The position numbers and the translations under genes were made by a program. The notes beneath the pieces are model-generated. The model saw only the letters and a program-made list of their open reading frames with translations. It was not told the DNA's origin and did no database searches. From assembly GCA_030266015.1 (NCBI GenBank), contig JAJDHD010000008.1, positions 1 to 64,000 of the forward strand: a DNA stretch of 64,000 bases, read 5' to 3'. The DNA comes from Christensenellaceae bacterium OttesenSCG-928-K19. GTDB taxonomy: Bacteria; Bacillota; Clostridia; Christensenellales; Christensenellaceae. The first letter of the stretch is position 1; each line of letters begins with the position of its first letter. Shown in pieces: positions 31,161 to 43,696 of this stretch.

Positions 31161-31577
31161 TCAATGCCCTTTGTGCTTTTGCTTGCGTTTTTGCTGCTTT
31201 AACGCAAATTGCCGCTCTTTTTCCTGCTCATTTTGCCGCTGTTTTTTTGTTTTACGCTCTGCTTTTTGCTCCTCGTGCTGCATGGCAAGCGCTTGCTGCG
31301 ACTTTGTGCCCGTTCCCTTTGCTATTTCCCTTGCCGCCCTGCGCTGCATACGCTTGGGGTTTACCCTCGCGGGTGGTGCGGCTTTTATGCGGACGGGCGG
31401 GCTGAAGCACAGCCTGTGCCGGTTTTCCAACAAAAAGGCATACACCTCATAATCCTTTGGTTCTGCGCCGAATGTGATTTTGCATACGCGAAGCCTGCCA
31501 TGGGCAGACAGCTCATACACCCCCACCCAAAAAGGGTCGTCAAAAAACACCGTCAGCTTTGCCGTGATCGTTTGCAT
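31161..31577 (-). CDS. yjdF: YjdF family protein
   Basis: A 138-residue protein starting MQTITAKLTVFFDDPFWVG. The N-terminal strand region, with AKITFG-like and YEVYAFLL motifs, is the YjdF (DUF2992) domain. The C-terminal third is a highly basic, Gln/Lys-rich helix. The biochemical role is unknown; in other Firmicutes it is controlled by the azaaromatic-responsive yjdF riboswitch, and a long structured leader is present here. GAGGAGG precedes the ATG at 31577. Downstream the M56 operon operators begin within a few bases of its stop. Confidence 0.85.
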   Translation of the reverse strand: MQTITAKLTVFFDDPFWVGVYELSAHGRLRVCKITFGAEPKDYEVYAFLLENRHRLCFSPPVRIKAAPPARVNPKRMQRRAAREIAKGTGTKSQQALAMQHEEQKAERKTKKQRQNEQEKERQFALKQQKRKQKHKGH

Positions 31578-31705
31578 CACAAAAACCTCCTCATGATCAC
31601 AGCAAAGAATGGACAACCAAGGAGATTGGCAGGTTACTGACAGTATTGCTACCGCGCCCGGACTACCGGCCGGGGCTGTGTTTTTTCCTTTGCGTTTATG
31701 GAATT
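31578..31705 (-). ncRNA. Structured leader, candidate yjdF riboswitch
   Basis: The transcript from the promoter at 31712-31740 has a leader of about 125 nt before yjdF. It contains AAAGGAAAAAACA, a CCGG-xx-GTAGT-CCGG hairpin, a TACTG-tc-AGTA element and GTAACCTGCC, and ends at a GAGGAGG ribosome binding site. Position and features fit the yjdF riboswitch class, but I recall its consensus only loosely. Confidence 0.5.
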
Positions 31706-36494: not shown

Positions 36495-37256
36495 TTATTC
36501 TTTTTTGCCCTGCCGCGCGGCAACAGGCTGTGCCACGCCTGCGTTCCCCTGTCCCCCAGAAAAATCACTGCGGATAATCTGATCTGCCACAAAGCTGAAA
36601 TAACCGCCGCCCGCCACAATAACATGATCAAGGAACTGAATGCCTAACACATCCAGCGCTTCTTTGATATGCCGTGTGGTTTCGATGTCATTTTTGCTGG
36701 GCCTGGGGCTGCCGCCCGGATGGTTATGCGCCACCAGCACCTTGTCTGCGCTGCTGCGCATGGCGGCCTCGGCAATCTGGCGGATGTATACGGATGTGGC
36801 GGTGGGCAAGCCTTTGGAGAGAAGTGTGGCGCTTTTTACGCCAAAGGCGGCATCCAGGCAAATGATGTAAAAATGCTCCACCGGCTTGCCGTAGAGCAGC
36901 GATTTTGCATAGTCCGCGGCTTTTTCCACAGAGTCAAGCGCAACCCCGCCATCTTCCCCGGCAAACCAAAACTTCGCGGCAAGCTCGGGAATCAGCTTCA
37001 CCAATATGGCGGCAGATTCACCAATCCCCGGCACCTTTTGCAAGTCCTCCACCGTGGCGGCAAACACATTTTTCAGGCTGCCAAAGGTTTGGAGCAAAAG
37101 ATGCGCCAGCTCGTTGGTATCCCGCCTGGGGATGGCATAAAAAAGCAGCAGCTCCAGCGCCTGGTGATCCTCAAACCCGGCGAGCCCCTCGCGCGCAAAC
37201 CTGTTTTTAAGCCGCTCCCGATGCCCGGTGTGCGGCATATCCGTTTCTTTTCCCAT
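36495..37256 (-). CDS. radC: RadC-family JAMM protein
   Basis: A 253-residue protein: an N-terminal helix-hairpin-helix segment (DLQKVPGIGESAA) and a JAB/JAMM metalloprotease-like domain with HNHPGGSPRPSKND carrying the zinc histidines, serine and aspartate. The name is historical; a DNA-repair role is not established, and the domain also occurs in mobile elements. The C-terminal tail of about 25 residues is Gly/Gln-rich. The start is ambiguous between ATGs at 37256 and 37238. Confidence 0.85.
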   Translation of the reverse strand: MGKETDMPHTGHRERLKNRFAREGLAGFEDHQALELLLFYAIPRRDTNELAHLLLQTFGSLKNVFAATVEDLQKVPGIGESAAILVKLIPELAAKFWFAGEDGGVALDSVEKAADYAKSLLYGKPVEHFYIICLDAAFGVKSATLLSKGLPTATSVYIRQIAEAAMRSSADKVLVAHNHPGGSPRPSKNDIETTRHIKEALDVLGIQFLDHVIVAGGGYFSFVADQIIRSDFSGGQGNAGVAQPVAARQGKKE

Positions 37257-37390: not shown

Positions 37391-40102
37391 TTACCCCCGC
37401 CCGGGCGCGGCCTTCCCTTGCTTGTGATTTTCCAGCGCGGCTTCCAGCCCGGCCTGTGGCATGGGCTTGTAATAATAAAAGCCCTGTATGATATCCACCC
37501 CCGCCTGCACGCAATACTCCAGCTGGTTTTTTGTTTCCACGCCCTCCACGCACACTTTTTGTCCCGTCTTGTGGATAAGATCGGCCATGGTAGCAAGGAA
37601 ATCCTTGGAGTAAGTGTTGCTTTCGATATTCTTGATAAACGACCTGTCAATTTTCACAAGGTCAAGCGGCAGTTCATTCAAATAACTCAAGGAGGAATAC
37701 CCCGTGCCGAAATCATCCAGCGCCACCTGCATCCCCGCCTCCACAAACCTGCCCATGATAAGCTTTTGCCTGGAAAGGCTCTCTATACCCAGGCTTTCGG
37801 TAATCTCCAGCACTATATTACCCGGCTTCACGCCCTCGTTCTTCACAATATGATAAAGGCTTGCAAAGATATCCGGCGCGTTAAACTGTTTTACAGACAC
37901 ATTGACGCTTATCATAAAATCCGGATTTGCCTGGTTTATTTTTTTGCACAAGCGCGCCGCCTGCCCCAGCACAAATTCACCCAGCGACAGGATGAGCCCT
38001 GTGTGCTCCGCCACGGGAATAAACGCGCCCGGCGATACGGGCTCGCCGTTGTCGTCCTTCCAGCGCAGCAGCGCCTCCGCACCCACAATCTCCCCCTGCG
38101 CCGACACCCACGGCTGGTAATGCACCTCAAACCGGGCAAAATCATTGGCAATGCAGTCGCGCATCTGGCGGATCATGTCCACGCGTTCGTTCGTATCCGT
38201 ATCCAGGCGCACATCATACATCACAAAATCATTTTTACCGCGTTTTTTTGCCACATGCATCGCAAGGTCGGCATTTTTTATGATAACATCCGCGCTCTCA
38301 TCCGCTACGGGAAAGCGCGCCCCGCCCACGCTGACCGTGCAATAGAAGCGCGCGCCCATTAGCTCCCATGCTTCTTGTGTGCGCGATAAAATAACCTGCG
38401 CGGCCTCATTGGCACGCGCGTCCGGCGCATCCTCCATCATCAGGCAGAATTCGTCCCCCCCAATACGGAACACCTCCGCCTCCTCCATGAATTCTTCTTT
38501 CAGGAAATTGGAAAACTCAGCCAGCAACGCATTGCCAAAGCTGTGCCCATAGCTTTTGTTAATCGTCATAAAATCATCCAGGTCGATCACCAGCAGTTGA
38601 CCCATCTGACCGTTCTTGCGCATATGGCGCAACACAGCCTCCAGCCGCTTTTCCATACCATAGCGGTTTTTCAGCCCGGTTAGCTGATCCATATCCTCCT
38701 GCGCTTCGCTGGCGCCGGTATTCCGCAGCTCTTCCAGCCTGATTTTTTGCATCTGCGATTCCGATTGCTCCATCACCAGCTTTTTTTTGACATAATCCAC
38801 GCAATTTTCCACGTGGTTATATCCCAGTGCCACCGCGCGCGCCATTTCTTCGCAGGAATGATAGCCACAGCCGCTGCAATCTTGCCCCTGCGCGTCCGCC
38901 GTAAACTTAAGCATCTTTTGGAAGGTGTGGTGCAGCATGGTCTTGGTTACTTTTTCCTCCGCTTTATAGCGGTTGTCATAATGCAGCATAAAATCCTGCA
39001 CATCGAGCGCGCTAAACCGCTCGTTAAGCGCTGCCAGCCGCTGCTCCAGGCTGGGTGGGCCGCCCTCTTCCTGCCTGATGCCCCGTTTTTCCACACGCAT
39101 TTTGTTGGTGAAATATGGGATGTGATTGCTGGACGTATTTTTGAATTCCGTCGCCGTGCCATAGTTGCAGCCACGCGCACAGTTTAATATATCAATCAAT
39201 TCGGCGCGATATGGGTCGTCATAATCAACCCTTGCGGCATAAAGATCCAGATAGCTGTAGGAGTATGTTTCGCCTTCCTTCTGGTTTACATAAGCGTTTT
39301 TATCAAGCCCGGTGTAATACTCCAAATTCTCGCGCATACCGCCCTGCGTGGAAAACAACGCGCCCATACCATAATCAATCTCCGATCCATCCGCGTAATA
39401 GTTGGAGATATCCTGGTTTCCTATGGCGCTCATCAGGTGGTCAAACGTGACGTTATAGGAAATATGGCCTGCGTTTTGCGGGCGCTCAATTTCCATTTTT
39501 TTGCCTATGCATGGGCTGATAAACGCAAGCTCGTCTGTCACTCCCATATATTTTTGCAGATAAATCGCCGTGCACATCACCGGGCTTTGCACCGGAATGA
39601 GGCGCTCCAAAAGCTCTGGCTTGTAGCGCTCAATATAATTGACAATGACCGGGCATGGCTGTGAAATAACGCCGCGCCCGCCATAATTCTTCAGGTAATT
39701 TACATAAGCCCAAATGGTAATGTCCGCACCCGCGCTAACGCTGTAAATATGCTTTACGCCGAGGCTCTTCAGGTAGCCCAGCACCATTTTGTATTTTTGT
39801 GGATAATTGATAATAAACGCCGGCGCAATGACGACGGAAATGTCCTTTTCCCCTGTTGAAAGGTCCTCAAAAAAACGCTGTGTATCGTCCTTAAAGATAC
39901 GTGCGTCATGGGTGCAGGTATCCATGCACTTGCCGCACAGGATACACTTTTCCTGGTCGATATAAACCCTGCTGCCGCCTTCTTTTTCTTCTACGGCAAT
40001 ATTCGCGCTAAAAACGGGACATACGCCGATGCACTTATTGCAGCCTTTGCACGCATCCGTCGTTTGGATAATGCCCCTGTTTAACTTGCTGTGGTCGATC
40101 AT
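37391..40102 (-). CDS. [FeFe]-hydrogenase-like sensor fused to GGDEF and EAL domains
   Basis: A 903-residue cytoplasmic protein. Order: two 4Fe-4S ferredoxin motifs (Cys 18/21/24/28 and 53/56/59/63); an iron-only-hydrogenase large-subunit domain (about 90-330) with H-cluster-like motifs QPCPVIV (Cys150), SPCIGKKME (Cys198) and NCARGC (Cys308/312); a further Fe-S motif CSGCGYHSC (409-417); a linker helix; GGDEF with intact RIGGDEF (546-552) and no obvious RxxD inhibitory site; and EAL with EALLR (676), NVS, EITES, DDFGTGYSS, KIDRS and EGVE intact. The usual TSCCPxW motif keeps only one cysteine, as in sensory rather than catalytic hydrogenases. It should convert redox state or H2 into cyclic-di-GMP change. 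GGGGAGGG precedes the ATG. Confidence 0.9.
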   Translation of the reverse strand: MIDHSKLNRGIIQTTDACKGCNKCIGVCPVFSANIAVEEKEGGSRVYIDQEKCILCGKCMDTCTHDARIFKDDTQRFFEDLSTGEKDISVVIAPAFIINYPQKYKMVLGYLKSLGVKHIYSVSAGADITIWAYVNYLKNYGGRGVISQPCPVIVNYIERYKPELLERLIPVQSPVMCTAIYLQKYMGVTDELAFISPCIGKKMEIERPQNAGHISYNVTFDHLMSAIGNQDISNYYADGSEIDYGMGALFSTQGGMRENLEYYTGLDKNAYVNQKEGETYSYSYLDLYAARVDYDDPYRAELIDILNCARGCNYGTATEFKNTSSNHIPYFTNKMRVEKRGIRQEEGGPPSLEQRLAALNERFSALDVQDFMLHYDNRYKAEEKVTKTMLHHTFQKMLKFTADAQGQDCSGCGYHSCEEMARAVALGYNHVENCVDYVKKKLVMEQSESQMQKIRLEELRNTGASEAQEDMDQLTGLKNRYGMEKRLEAVLRHMRKNGQMGQLLVIDLDDFMTINKSYGHSFGNALLAEFSNFLKEEFMEEAEVFRIGGDEFCLMMEDAPDARANEAAQVILSRTQEAWELMGARFYCTVSVGGARFPVADESADVIIKNADLAMHVAKKRGKNDFVMYDVRLDTDTNERVDMIRQMRDCIANDFARFEVHYQPWVSAQGEIVGAEALLRWKDDNGEPVSPGAFIPVAEHTGLILSLGEFVLGQAARLCKKINQANPDFMISVNVSVKQFNAPDIFASLYHIVKNEGVKPGNIVLEITESLGIESLSRQKLIMGRFVEAGMQVALDDFGTGYSSLSYLNELPLDLVKIDRSFIKNIESNTYSKDFLATMADLIHKTGQKVCVEGVETKNQLEYCVQAGVDIIQGFYYYKPMPQAGLEAALENHKQGKAAPGRG

Positions 40103-40179
40103 GGCCCTCCCCGGTTGTCCTATCGCATTCCATCCCCCGGCACAAAACAGGGCACAGGCCCTGCTTGTGTTCGTCCCAA

Positions 40180-40212
40180 TCTAACCACAACTGAATCACA
40201 ACCGAATCACAA
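40180..40212. repeat. Three tandem 11-bp repeats upstream of the hydrogenase-like sensor gene
   Basis: Exactly adjacent units at 40180-40190, 40191-40201 and 40202-40212; minus-strand forms are TTGTGATTCGG, TTGTGATTCAG and TTGTGGTTAGA. They lie 78-110 bases before the ATG at 40102, one helical turn apart, as expected for a regulator array. Confidence 0.75.
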
Positions 40213-40350
40213 GCGGATAGTTGAAAACGGGCTTTTTGTAAATTTTACCCTGTTTTTTGTGTTCCGGTTCTTTGCACTGTTTGTCCCCAGCCCAAGGTGG
40301 TATAATATAATTATAAAGCAACAGAACCGCAACAGGACAGGAGAAAGACT

Positions 40351-41112
40351 ATGGGAATTGCCGTTGTGACAGGCGCTTCATCCGGCATGGGGCGCGAGTT
40401 TGTAAAGCAGATCAGTCAAAGGGGAGATGTGGAGCAAATCTATGCCATTGCCCGCAGGCAAGACCGCCTGGACGAGCTGGCTAAGGAGGTGCAAACGCCC
40501 GTTGTTCCCCTTGCGCTCGACCTGGCGGATACAAAAAGCATCGACACGCTCTCGCAGACGCTTGCGAAGGCGCAGCCGGACGTTGCCATGCTGGTAAACT
40601 GCGCGGGGTTCGCAAAATTTGGCGCGCAGGGACAGGTGGGCACGGCAGACCTGCTTTCCATGATCGACCTTAACGTGCGGGCGCTTGTTGCGCTAACCGA
40701 GCTGTGCATCCCCTATATGAAGGCGGGCGCGCTTATTTTGGAGGTTGCCTCCACCGCGGCGTTCCAGCCGTTGCCGGATATGAACGTATATGCCGCCACA
40801 AAGGCGTTTGTTTTGAGCTATTCCCGTGCGCTTAACGAAGAGCTTGCCGAGCGCAGCATCAGCGTGACCGCCGTGTGCCCCGGCTGGACAAAGACGGAAT
40901 TCTTTGACGTGGCGGAAAAGGACGCCGACAAAAACGCTGTGCACAAAATGCCCTTTATGACCACTCCACAGGCCGTGGTGCGGCGCGCGCTGAAAGATGC
41001 GAAGAACCACCGCAGCGTGTCCGTCTGCGGGGCAATGAACGTGGCACACTGGATTTTCTCCAAAATCATCCCAGACAGCCTGATTATGACAATTTGGGAA
41101 GAGATGAAGTGA
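40351..41112 (+). CDS. Short-chain dehydrogenase/reductase
   Basis: A 253-residue classical SDR with TGASSGMGREF (NADP-type glycine motif), the NCAG motif, the catalytic serine strand and YAATK, followed by PGWTKTEF. It oxidises or reduces an unknown alcohol or ketone. A perfect TATAAT lies upstream near 40311. AGGAGA precedes the ATG. It is divergent from the hydrogenase-like sensor and convergent with the FIST genes, so it is probably an unrelated transcription unit inserted between them. Confidence 0.9.
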   Translation: MGIAVVTGASSGMGREFVKQISQRGDVEQIYAIARRQDRLDELAKEVQTPVVPLALDLADTKSIDTLSQTLAKAQPDVAMLVNCAGFAKFGAQGQVGTADLLSMIDLNVRALVALTELCIPYMKAGALILEVASTAAFQPLPDMNVYAATKAFVLSYSRALNEELAERSISVTAVCPGWTKTEFFDVAEKDADKNAVHKMPFMTTPQAVVRRALKDAKNHRSVSVCGAMNVAHWIFSKIIPDSLIMTIWEEMK

Positions 41113-41178: not shown

Positions 41179-42387
41179 TTAAAACGCGCACAGCACAAGT
41201 GATTCGTTGTAGGCAAATGTAACCACCTCACCGCTTTTCAACGGGATGGGGCCAATCTCCCCCATGCTGTAAAAGCCCGCGAGGGACATACCCTCCTTCA
41301 TGCTTGCAATCACCCTGTCTGCCTCCACAGAGCTTTGGGGCAGCATGAGCAAATAACGCCCGATGCAGCTGACCGCAACAATGGTGGAATACTGGTAGCC
41401 GTCTTGCTCGCCCTTCTCTATCTTGCTATTCAACTCTTCCATGCCAAGCACGGCAGCCTGCTCTATATCGCTGCGCTCCAGCGTGCAGATGGACAGCGTG
41501 GCTCCCTCTGGAATAAACCCTACCGCCGCGCCGCTGCCCTCCGCGGGGTTGAGCTGATGCAGCGTGCGCACAAAGGAATAATTCTCCCCATCCGGCGACT
41601 CTACATTTTCCAGCAGTACAGGATTTGCAACAAATGTAACCGTGTTGTTGCCCGACGCAAGGCTTGCCACATCAAAGCCCAGATCTTCCATATATTCGCA
41701 AAACGTCTGGTTGCCCACACGGTATACCACATTCTCACGCGCCTCTGTCACCTGGCGCTTGCGCTCCACAGAGGTGCCTGTCACCTTCTTGGCGGTGCAC
41801 ACCGGCTTCAGGTTGCCGGACACACACAAGAGCACCATTTTGTTCGGGTACACGTTGCCGCCAAATATGGTGGCGTTTACATCGCCATCGCCGTTATCCG
41901 ACGGCACGCCGCCAATCACCGGCACCCCCGGTGCAATCCTGTTGAAGGCTTCCGTGAAAATATCCAGCGTTACACCCAGGTTGTATGGGGGCAACGCAAA
42001 AATCAGCTTGGGCTCTTCTGGCAAGCCCTGCCTGGCCTGCCCAAACGCCCGCTCCACCTGATCTTCCACGTTTTCGCGCGTGATATCATCTGTAAGAACA
42101 GCGGAAAAATCACAATCATCCGCCGTCAGCACCATCAGCGTAGCCGCCATTTCGTGGAACCCGCCCTTGCCGTCCATCGACGCAATACACGTGCAGCCGA
42201 TGACAGGAAAGGAAAACCGCTCCATAATATGGGCGACAAAATCCTCCAGGTCGATATCCGAATAGCAATAGAGCAGCCCCACCGAGTTTTTTTGCAGTGC
42301 AAACCCGTTCATAATCCCATCCGCAAGCTCGTTTGCCGCCAGCTGCATATCATCCACCTGATAGGTTACCGCAACATTTGATTTCAT
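41179..42387 (-). CDS. FIST-domain sensory protein (second of pair)
   Basis: A 402-residue soluble protein with a FIST_N domain (FPVIGCTCIASMDGKGG, then PVIGGVPSDNGDGD) and a FIST_C domain (FCEYMEDLGF, GEIGPIPLKSG). FIST domains are predicted small-ligand, possibly amino acid, sensors. It ends in YNESLVLCAF, almost identical to the end of its neighbour. GGGGGA precedes the ATG. It is cotranscribed with the first FIST gene and lies 1.1 kb from the hydrogenase-GGDEF-EAL gene in the same direction. Confidence 0.85.
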   Translation of the reverse strand: MKSNVAVTYQVDDMQLAANELADGIMNGFALQKNSVGLLYCYSDIDLEDFVAHIMERFSFPVIGCTCIASMDGKGGFHEMAATLMVLTADDCDFSAVLTDDITRENVEDQVERAFGQARQGLPEEPKLIFALPPYNLGVTLDIFTEAFNRIAPGVPVIGGVPSDNGDGDVNATIFGGNVYPNKMVLLCVSGNLKPVCTAKKVTGTSVERKRQVTEARENVVYRVGNQTFCEYMEDLGFDVASLASGNNTVTFVANPVLLENVESPDGENYSFVRTLHQLNPAEGSGAAVGFIPEGATLSICTLERSDIEQAAVLGMEELNSKIEKGEQDGYQYSTIVAVSCIGRYLLMLPQSSVEADRVIASMKEGMSLAGFYSMGEIGPIPLKSGEVVTFAYNESLVLCAF

Positions 42388-42508: not shown

Positions 42509-43696
42509 TTAAAACGCGCAGAACACGAGTGTTTCGTTATACATAAAGCTTTTTCCCGGAATTTCGGGAATGGGCGCAACCTCGCCCCCGCTGTAAAACC
42601 CAATGGCATGCATACCTTCCGGCAGCATCTGCCCCACTATATCCGCCTCGCCGCCCGTGCCGGGCAATAGCAACAGGTAGCGCGCAATACACGATACCAT
42701 AAGCAGGCTGGAACGTTCCTGCCCGTCCCCAAGCTGCTGCAATACCTGCCGCATCCCCTGCTCTACAGAGGAGATCACATCCTCCCTGCGATAAGTGCAA
42801 AAAGAGATTGTGGCGCCCTGTGGCACGCCCGCAAGCACGGTTACACTGCCCTCTTGCCTGTTTGCATACCTCACCACGCGGGAATAGGAAAACTGGTTGC
42901 CTTGCTCATCCTCCTGCTCCACAACGAGCGGATATGTAACATAGGTAAGCACGCCCGTCTCTGTATCCTCCGCCACGGGAATGCCCATGCTTTCCAGATA
43001 TTCCACAAACGTCTGCTCTCCCACACGGTTAATCGCCGTGCCATGCGAGGACACCACCTTCCGCTTTCGCGGAAACGTATGGTCCTCAGGGATCATCACC
43101 GTCCACACCGGGTGCACATTGCCTGTGATGCCAAGAAGCACCAGCCTGTCATCCGACACCTCTGTATTACAAATAACTGCCGCTTTTTCCCCACTTTCAT
43201 AGTTTGTTGTGGGGATGCCGCCCAAAATAGGAATGCCGGCAAGCTCCTTGCTAAACGCCTGTGAGTAGCCTTCCATGGGAATATTGCCCCCCACTGCCGG
43301 AAACGCCAGCACAAGGCCCGGCTTTTGCCCCGCGCTGCTAAGAAGCTGCCCACAAACCGCCGCAGCCTGCTGCTCTACCCCTTCTGCCGTAACCGCGCCG
43401 GACACCACGGTATGGAACGCGCAATCATCTGCCGACAGCACCAAGAGCACCGCCGCCATTTCGTGGAAGCCGTCTTCGTCATCCATAGAGGCAATGCAAT
43501 TACACCCCACAATATTAAATGGCACGCTTTCACACAAAAGCGTCATAAATGTTTTTGTATCCATATCTGAATAGCAGAAAAGAATGCCCACAGAATTTTG
43601 CTTAAGCGCAGGGCCTTCGAGGACGCCCGCCGCCAATTCTGCTACGGCCAGCTCCGGATTATCGATTTCATACGTGGTTGCCAGCTTTGAAATCAT
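42509..43696 (-). CDS. FIST-domain sensory protein (first of pair)
   Basis: A 395-residue paralogue of 41179-42387 with the same plan: FNIVGCNCIASMDDEDGFHEM, PILGGIPTTNYESG, and a FIST_C half with FVEYLESMGI and GFYSGGEVAPIP, ending YNETLVFCAF. Both proteins keep the GC(T/N)CIASMD cysteine pair, which may be functional. Its promoter is near consensus. No output domain is attached, so it should act through a partner; the nearest candidate is the GGDEF-EAL sensor. Confidence 0.85.
   Translation of the reverse strand: MISKLATTYEIDNPELAVAELAAGVLEGPALKQNSVGILFCYSDMDTKTFMTLLCESVPFNIVGCNCIASMDDEDGFHEMAAVLLVLSADDCAFHTVVSGAVTAEGVEQQAAAVCGQLLSSAGQKPGLVLAFPAVGGNIPMEGYSQAFSKELAGIPILGGIPTTNYESGEKAAVICNTEVSDDRLVLLGITGNVHPVWTVMIPEDHTFPRKRKVVSSHGTAINRVGEQTFVEYLESMGIPVAEDTETGVLTYVTYPLVVEQEDEQGNQFSYSRVVRYANRQEGSVTVLAGVPQGATISFCTYRREDVISSVEQGMRQVLQQLGDGQERSSLLMVSCIARYLLLLPGTGGEADIVGQMLPEGMHAIGFYSGGEVAPIPEIPGKSFMYNETLVFCAF

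Follow-up and report, generated by a model that had tools for sequence, protein, structure and literature searches.

A clostridial protein that joins a putative C2-type [FeFe]-hydrogenase sensory module to GGDEF and EAL domains: a candidate switch from H2 to c-di-GMP

The 64-kb window, i.e. the whole stretch of DNA analysed, carries an open reading frame (ORF) with an ATG start whose product unites ferredoxin, [FeFe]-hydrogenase H-cluster, iron-sulfur, GGDEF and EAL domains in one polypeptide (Table 1). A GGGGAGG sequence a few bases 5′ of the start codon represents a plausible ribosome-binding site. The preliminary description of this DNA had given the same ORF, and its 903 residues, coordinates and minus strand proved exact; the two ferredoxin clusters, the CxxCx4C Fe-S motif and the GGDEF and EAL parts that it had placed in this ORF were all found as Pfam domains, and the domain search it had suggested (Fe_hyd_lg_C, Fer4, FeS, GGDEF, EAL) returned a match for every one of them. 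The Fer4 dicluster match spans residues 18–67, and E-values of 1.6e-23, 1e-5, 8.4e-35 and 2.3e-62 were obtained for Fe_hyd_lg_C, FeS, GGDEF and EAL, respectively. Fe_hyd_lg_C scored 84.1 bits at a Pfam cut-off of 22.1 bits, and a chance origin of the five-domain composition is excluded. Among NCBIfam models, GGDEF-EAL phosphodiesterases scored best, and [FeFe] hydrogenase subfamily models matched only far under their cut-offs. The input half aligns with CpI-type hydrogenases and the output half aligns end to end with the structures of MorA and DosP (PDB codes 4rnh and 9bgv). Any given cysteine of the ferredoxin motifs is shared by 125 or more of the 130 relatives, and all 130 have the four cysteines of the C-terminal FeS domain. 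The linker between sensor and GGDEF domain is likely a signalling helix.

Table 1. Features of the fusion gene and its surroundings; positions are those of the window.
Feature	Position	Strand	Basis
Whole ORF, 903 aa: ferredoxin, H-domain, FeS, GGDEF, EAL	37391..40102	-	
Two ferredoxin-type [4Fe-4S] motifs, residues 18-63 (C18 C21 C24 C28; C53 C56 C59 C63)	39914..40051	-	Pfam Fer4 families
H-cluster domain (Fe_hyd_lg_C), residues 88-315; ligands C150, C198, C308, C312; L1 SQPCP, L2 SPC, L3 LNCARGC	39158..39841	-	Pfam, CpI alignment, conservation
C-terminal Fe-S domain, residues 406-435, Cx2Cx4Cx16C (C409 C412 C417 C434)	38798..38887	-	Pfam FeS PF04060
Linker from sensor to GGDEF, residues 436-469 (~35 residues)	38696..38797	-	Position between Pfam domains
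GGDEF domain, residues 470-624; GGDEF, R546 and K619 kept; N524 at guanine-specificity Asp; no I-site	38231..38695	-	Pfam and alignment
N524 codon AAT (PleD D344 / Hypr GacA Ser348 position)	38531..38533	-	Alignment; meaning of position from PMC6456294
EAL domain, residues 657-880; EALLR, NVS, EITE, DDFGTG, KID, EGVE, QG all present	37463..38134	-	Pfam and motif alignment
radC, next gene downstream	36495-37256	-	
248-bp intergenic region, common to the fusion gene and the divergent SDR gene	40103..40350	.	
SDR gene, divergent	40351-41112	+	
FIST gene (N+C), upstream beyond the SDR gene	41179-42387	-	
Second FIST gene (N+C)	42509-43696	-	

The two FIST proteins encoded in tandem upstream are 40% identical to one another, and their genes are preceded by a promoter with a perfect TTGACA-17-TATAAT match at 43801-43773. 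The fusion gene does not form an operon with this pair because the divergent SDR gene stands between them, and at the other module loci with several-kb flanks no FIST neighbour was found; the FIST genes were accordingly rejected as operon partners. Elsewhere in the genome, FIST is fused to GGDEF (G000:C117, L167), so that FIST sensing also feeds c-di-GMP in this organism, and occurs beside a histidine kinase (L169). The window further holds an azaaromatic (yjdF) riboswitch (31593-31697, minus strand, 77 bits) at the 5′ end of an ORF of 151 aa (31161-31616, minus strand).

Relatives of the sensory module were collected with a profile built from four modules, which was searched at four mutually overlapping taxonomic settings of approximately 390 genomes each, and 130 distinct modules were recovered. 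Domain searches assigned MCP outputs to 72 of them, histidine kinases (often hybrid) to 23, GGDEF to 14 and GGDEF-EAL to nine, the present protein counted, with other outputs such as sigma-54 activators in the remaining 12. Output swapping is frequent in this clade, which comprises MCP, histidine kinase, sigma-54 activator, GGDEF and GGDEF-EAL proteins. Phylogenetic trees separated the Clostridia clade of our module from groups A, C3 (the PAS/phosphatase-type C) and D with SH-aLRT support of 99–100%; group D was represented in these trees by group D-like sequences that had been assigned by motif and context. The module fell inside the MCP-dominated clade in both trees (support 99 and 100), in a clade separate from group D (M2e) HydS (support 100). 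HydDB lists histidine-kinase-linked (C1) and chemotactic (C2) [FeFe] classes (PMC5037454). We provisionally assign the module, as its best match, to HydDB group C2, ‘chemotactic (putative)’, a name that depends on MCP linkage, because MCP is the commonest output in the clade and in view of HydDB’s wording for C2. As the protein itself ends in GGDEF-EAL instead of an MCP domain, it would be a relative with a C2-type sensor module rather than a C2 chemoreceptor. PAS and PP2C, named in the preliminary description as the usual outputs of sensory [FeFe] proteins, are therefore not the only ones, given the C1 and C2 classes of HydDB and a clade that is mostly MCP-fused.

The same genome encodes two more Fe_hyd_lg_C proteins. 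One is a paralogue of the same clade fused to MCPsignal (L002), which like the MCP-fused proteins G001 L011 and Acetoanaerobium noterae L262 would share the C2 sensor module; an origin of the fusion gene from this paralogue by a simple output swap was ruled out, as their modules belong to different sub-clades. The other (L001; SSACP / ITPC / EGLACTGGC) is a separate, group D-like gene in a clade different from that of our module, and it is clustered with HATPase and NuoE-like genes. At L042:2000-8100 (G000:C55), the group D-like HydS gene (446 aa) stands with HATPase, PHP and NuoE-like genes, which recalls the context of TamHydS.

Comparison with known sensory hydrogenases revealed partial similarities. 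TamHydS of Thermoanaerobacter mathranii, a group D (M2e) protein (PMC8163306, PMC13104023), likewise has two N-terminal [4Fe-4S] clusters, an H-domain and a Cx2Cx4Cx16C motif without PAS, and shows the same exchanges M353S and M497L, but it is devoid of an output domain; the group D identity that these exchanges might suggest was ruled out by the trees. Group C3 or TmHydS-type proteins with PAS and SpoIIE phosphatase, e.g. RUMAL_RS17375 of Ruminococcus albus, share the sensory [FeFe] architecture and the C-terminal FeS domain, whereas the present protein has no PAS, is only 24% identical to RUMAL_RS17375 and belongs to a separate clade. Group 2c [NiFe] hydrogenases, ‘diguanylate cyclase-linked (putative)’ in HydDB, are hydrogenase sensors also proposed to act via c-di-GMP, but these are unrelated enzymes, while our sensor is of [FeFe] type and part of one polypeptide with GGDEF-EAL. 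Among [FeFe] classes, Table 1 of HydDB has none linked to diguanylate cyclase (PMC5037454). DosP is a gas sensor joined to a GGDEF-EAL output of the type found in our protein, although the input domains of both MorA and DosP are unrelated to that of our protein.

Alignment with CpI identified C150 and C198 as equivalents of C300 and C355, and K201 and E204 as equivalents of K358 and E361, all four being kept, and the third motif DILNCARGC supplies C308 and C312, the latter corresponding to CpI C503. The proton-transfer residue C299 is replaced by P149, M353 by S196 and M497, placed by motif register, by L306. The cysteines predicted to coordinate the H-cluster are thus all retained, with changes in proton-transfer and second-sphere residues, and with SQPCP, SPC and DILNCARGC in place of TSCCP, MPC and EVMACPGGC, the module lies outside catalytic group A, which has C299. 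Among the 130 modules, despite their different outputs, the four cysteines are complete in 129, proline occupies the P149 position in 123, and K201 and E204 are found in 124 and 129, respectively. The term ‘degenerate’ previously applied to this H-cluster domain is hence adequate for the C299, M353 and M497 positions but not for the four ligands and K201/E204. Among sensory enzymes, cysteine at the C299 position occurs in only 17% and proline in about 10%, and TmHydS binds an H-cluster all the same with alanine there (PMC10055695). The maturases HydF and HydG are encoded in the genome, and HydG was also present in five of six relatives tested. An AlphaFold model of the sensor, built from two sequences, reached a mean pLDDT of only 34, too low to be informative, and a scan of viral contigs revealed no relatives.

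Eight further GGDEF-EAL fusions (L214, L215, L219, L225, L240, L242, L243 and L244) come from four families, none of them the family of the present protein; the reading frame of L225 has one in-frame TGA upstream. When GGDEF-EAL was mapped as a label on the tree, parsimony required five changes, four of them forced by starred branches, so that a single origin was ruled out and this output was gained independently at least four times. The output half of our protein shares about 29–30% identity with each of two GGDEF-EAL proteins from the same genome (204 bits in both cases) and 27–31% with the other fusions (186 bits at most); it was probably recruited independently, because it is no nearer to the other fusions than to these proteins. 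In the open literature searched, which leaves most subscription journals outside, no fusion of an [FeFe] hydrogenase with GGDEF/EAL or c-di-GMP output was found described. We regard the fusion as a different output on a known putative sensor type; it recurs in Clostridia and seems not to have been described. The preliminary description had presented it as an unusual output, but the protein is not unique, considering the eight further fusions and several GGDEF-only members. Two of the fusions, L243:1768-4353 and L244:980-3553, combine an intact EAL domain with a decaying sensor (AHTCP or ASFCP, and in L244 a change of C308 to Gly) and a decaying GGDEF domain (MGGGTF or IMSDHF), as if the phosphodiesterase outlives the sensor.

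With the ligands kept in 129 of 130 modules and HydF and HydG in the genome, the proposal of a sensory [FeFe]-hydrogenase-type module joined to a c-di-GMP output was upheld. We lean, by a modest degree, towards a one-protein switch with a C2-type [FeFe] module at the input and c-di-GMP turnover at the output. The input would consist of the two ferredoxin clusters, the H-cluster domain and the C-terminal [4Fe-4S] domain typical of the Clostridia ‘C2-type’ clade. An H-cluster would be assembled in the module, and H2, or the balance of H2 and electrons, would shift its state. A conformational change might then travel via the FeS domain and the helix or linker behind it to the output. It would mainly affect the EAL phosphodiesterase, to which the GGDEF domain would be a partner that binds GTP or has weak cyclase activity. 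In this way, H2 or redox conditions around the cell could set c-di-GMP and hence the choice between motile and sessile life, and the MCP paralogue may feed the same kind of signal to chemotaxis in parallel. H2 sensing by this protein, like the link to electron load, is plausible as a prediction; to our knowledge, no group C2-type [FeFe] module has been tried for it. The nearest analogue studied by experiment is the group D sensor TamHydS, in which H2 alters the secondary structure but does not reduce the C-terminal cluster (PMC13104023); a signal could thus be passed on without electrons flowing through this cluster.

The same module might instead sense redox state (electron load), O2, NO or CO by its [4Fe-4S] clusters only, lacking the diiron subsite and not responding to H2, with c-di-GMP turnover as its output all the same. 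The residues at the C299, M353 and M497 positions and parts of the L3 loop, which differ from those of catalytic enzymes, argue for this explanation and against an H2 switch, as does a Clostridium survey in which group C2 matches were discarded after additional validity checks (PMC9431212). The genome G501 (L046/L101), rated 100% complete, also counts on this side: beside its module-MCP protein it encodes a second protein with an H-domain, and no HydG match was found in it, which would be explained by a gap or by a sensor that lacks the diiron site. We nevertheless consider sensing by [4Fe-4S] clusters only unlikely, though still a serious competitor, because C312, which is the fourth ligand of the cubane and also its bridge to the diiron site, as well as K201 and E204 would be dispensable in a simple [4Fe-4S] site, and these are kept in nearly all of the 130 modules; the HydG genes of this genome and of the tested relatives speak against it as well.

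With respect to the direction of the output, the preliminary description had taken both enzyme motif sets as intact, with c-di-GMP turnover as the output. In a truly bifunctional protein, c-di-GMP would be synthesised by GGDEF and broken down by EAL, and the sensor would decide between the two. For EAL, the motif alignment confirmed a complete phosphodiesterase set (E676, N734, E766/E769, D796, D797, K817, D819, E853 and Q873). The GGDEF domain has its signature (RIGGDEF), R546 and K619, and the GGDEF-only members of the sensor clade have canonical RWGGDEF motifs, both in favour of a working cyclase. However, N524 occupies the position of the guanine-contacting Asp (PleD D344), which is Asp in each of the 33 further GGDEF domains of the alignment and likewise in MorA; the neighbouring conserved Asp of ‘IND’ is replaced by K516, and the alignment revealed no RxxD I-site in this domain. 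Moreover, the GGDEF motif has degenerated in several of the sister fusions with GGDEF-EAL (YAGDEF, MGGGTF, IMSDHF), while their EAL is intact. True bifunctionality thus appears improbable. Asn at the specificity position might alternatively change nucleotide use, e.g. to cGAMP or to ATP binding, since this position divides Hypr (Ser) from canonical (Asp) enzymes and the domain has the GGDEF rather than GGEEF form that Hypr enzymes need (PMC6456294). Yet Hypr enzymes have Ser or Thr rather than Asn, so the domain does not classify as a Hypr (cGAMP) GGDEF; the Asn change is borne by one genome only, and the 64-kb window contains no cGAMP riboswitch, which makes altered nucleotide use highly improbable. 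Hydrolysis of c-di-GMP, with GGDEF regulatory or weak, is the likeliest output and the most economical explanation, because EAL is complete, the GGDEF domain has N524 and no I-site, and several sister fusions lose GGDEF yet keep EAL. Some 34 GGDEF domains encoded in the genome score above the cut-off; c-di-GMP is therefore a real currency in this organism.

In a wider sense, Clostridia may repeatedly have built switches from H2 to c-di-GMP by placing one [FeFe] module before GGDEF or before GGDEF-EAL with a regulatory GGDEF, the present example allowing H2 partial pressure to control hydrolysis beside a chemotaxis paralogue; we offer this generalisation tentatively, at somewhat below even confidence. 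As the module shares one polypeptide with an enzyme whose activity, the making or cleaving of c-di-GMP, is simple to assay, H2 sensing by C2-type modules would become directly testable, and the natural GGDEF-only and GGDEF-EAL variants represent a ready comparison set. If H2 indeed gates these proteins, fermentative and syntrophic H2 exchange among Clostridia would be tied to biofilm formation and motility via a known second messenger.

Several minor observations concern the relatives of the module. Sensory [FeFe] modules are joined to sigma-54 (NtrC-type) activators, the domain type being judged by eye, in L063, L064, L065, L098 and L100, one more output that would act directly on transcription. 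C2-type modules of a single clade (L087, L088 and L090) are fused to a large CheA-like kinase, likewise typed by eye, with a possible Hpt region. An ORF of 178 aa lies immediately 3′ of the MCP-fused paralogue on the same strand (L041:6506-7042, G000:C79) and may encode a partner. The module-MCP gene of A. noterae is located on a 2.63-Mb record labelled plasmid (NZ_CP154629.1), which is chromosome-sized in appearance.
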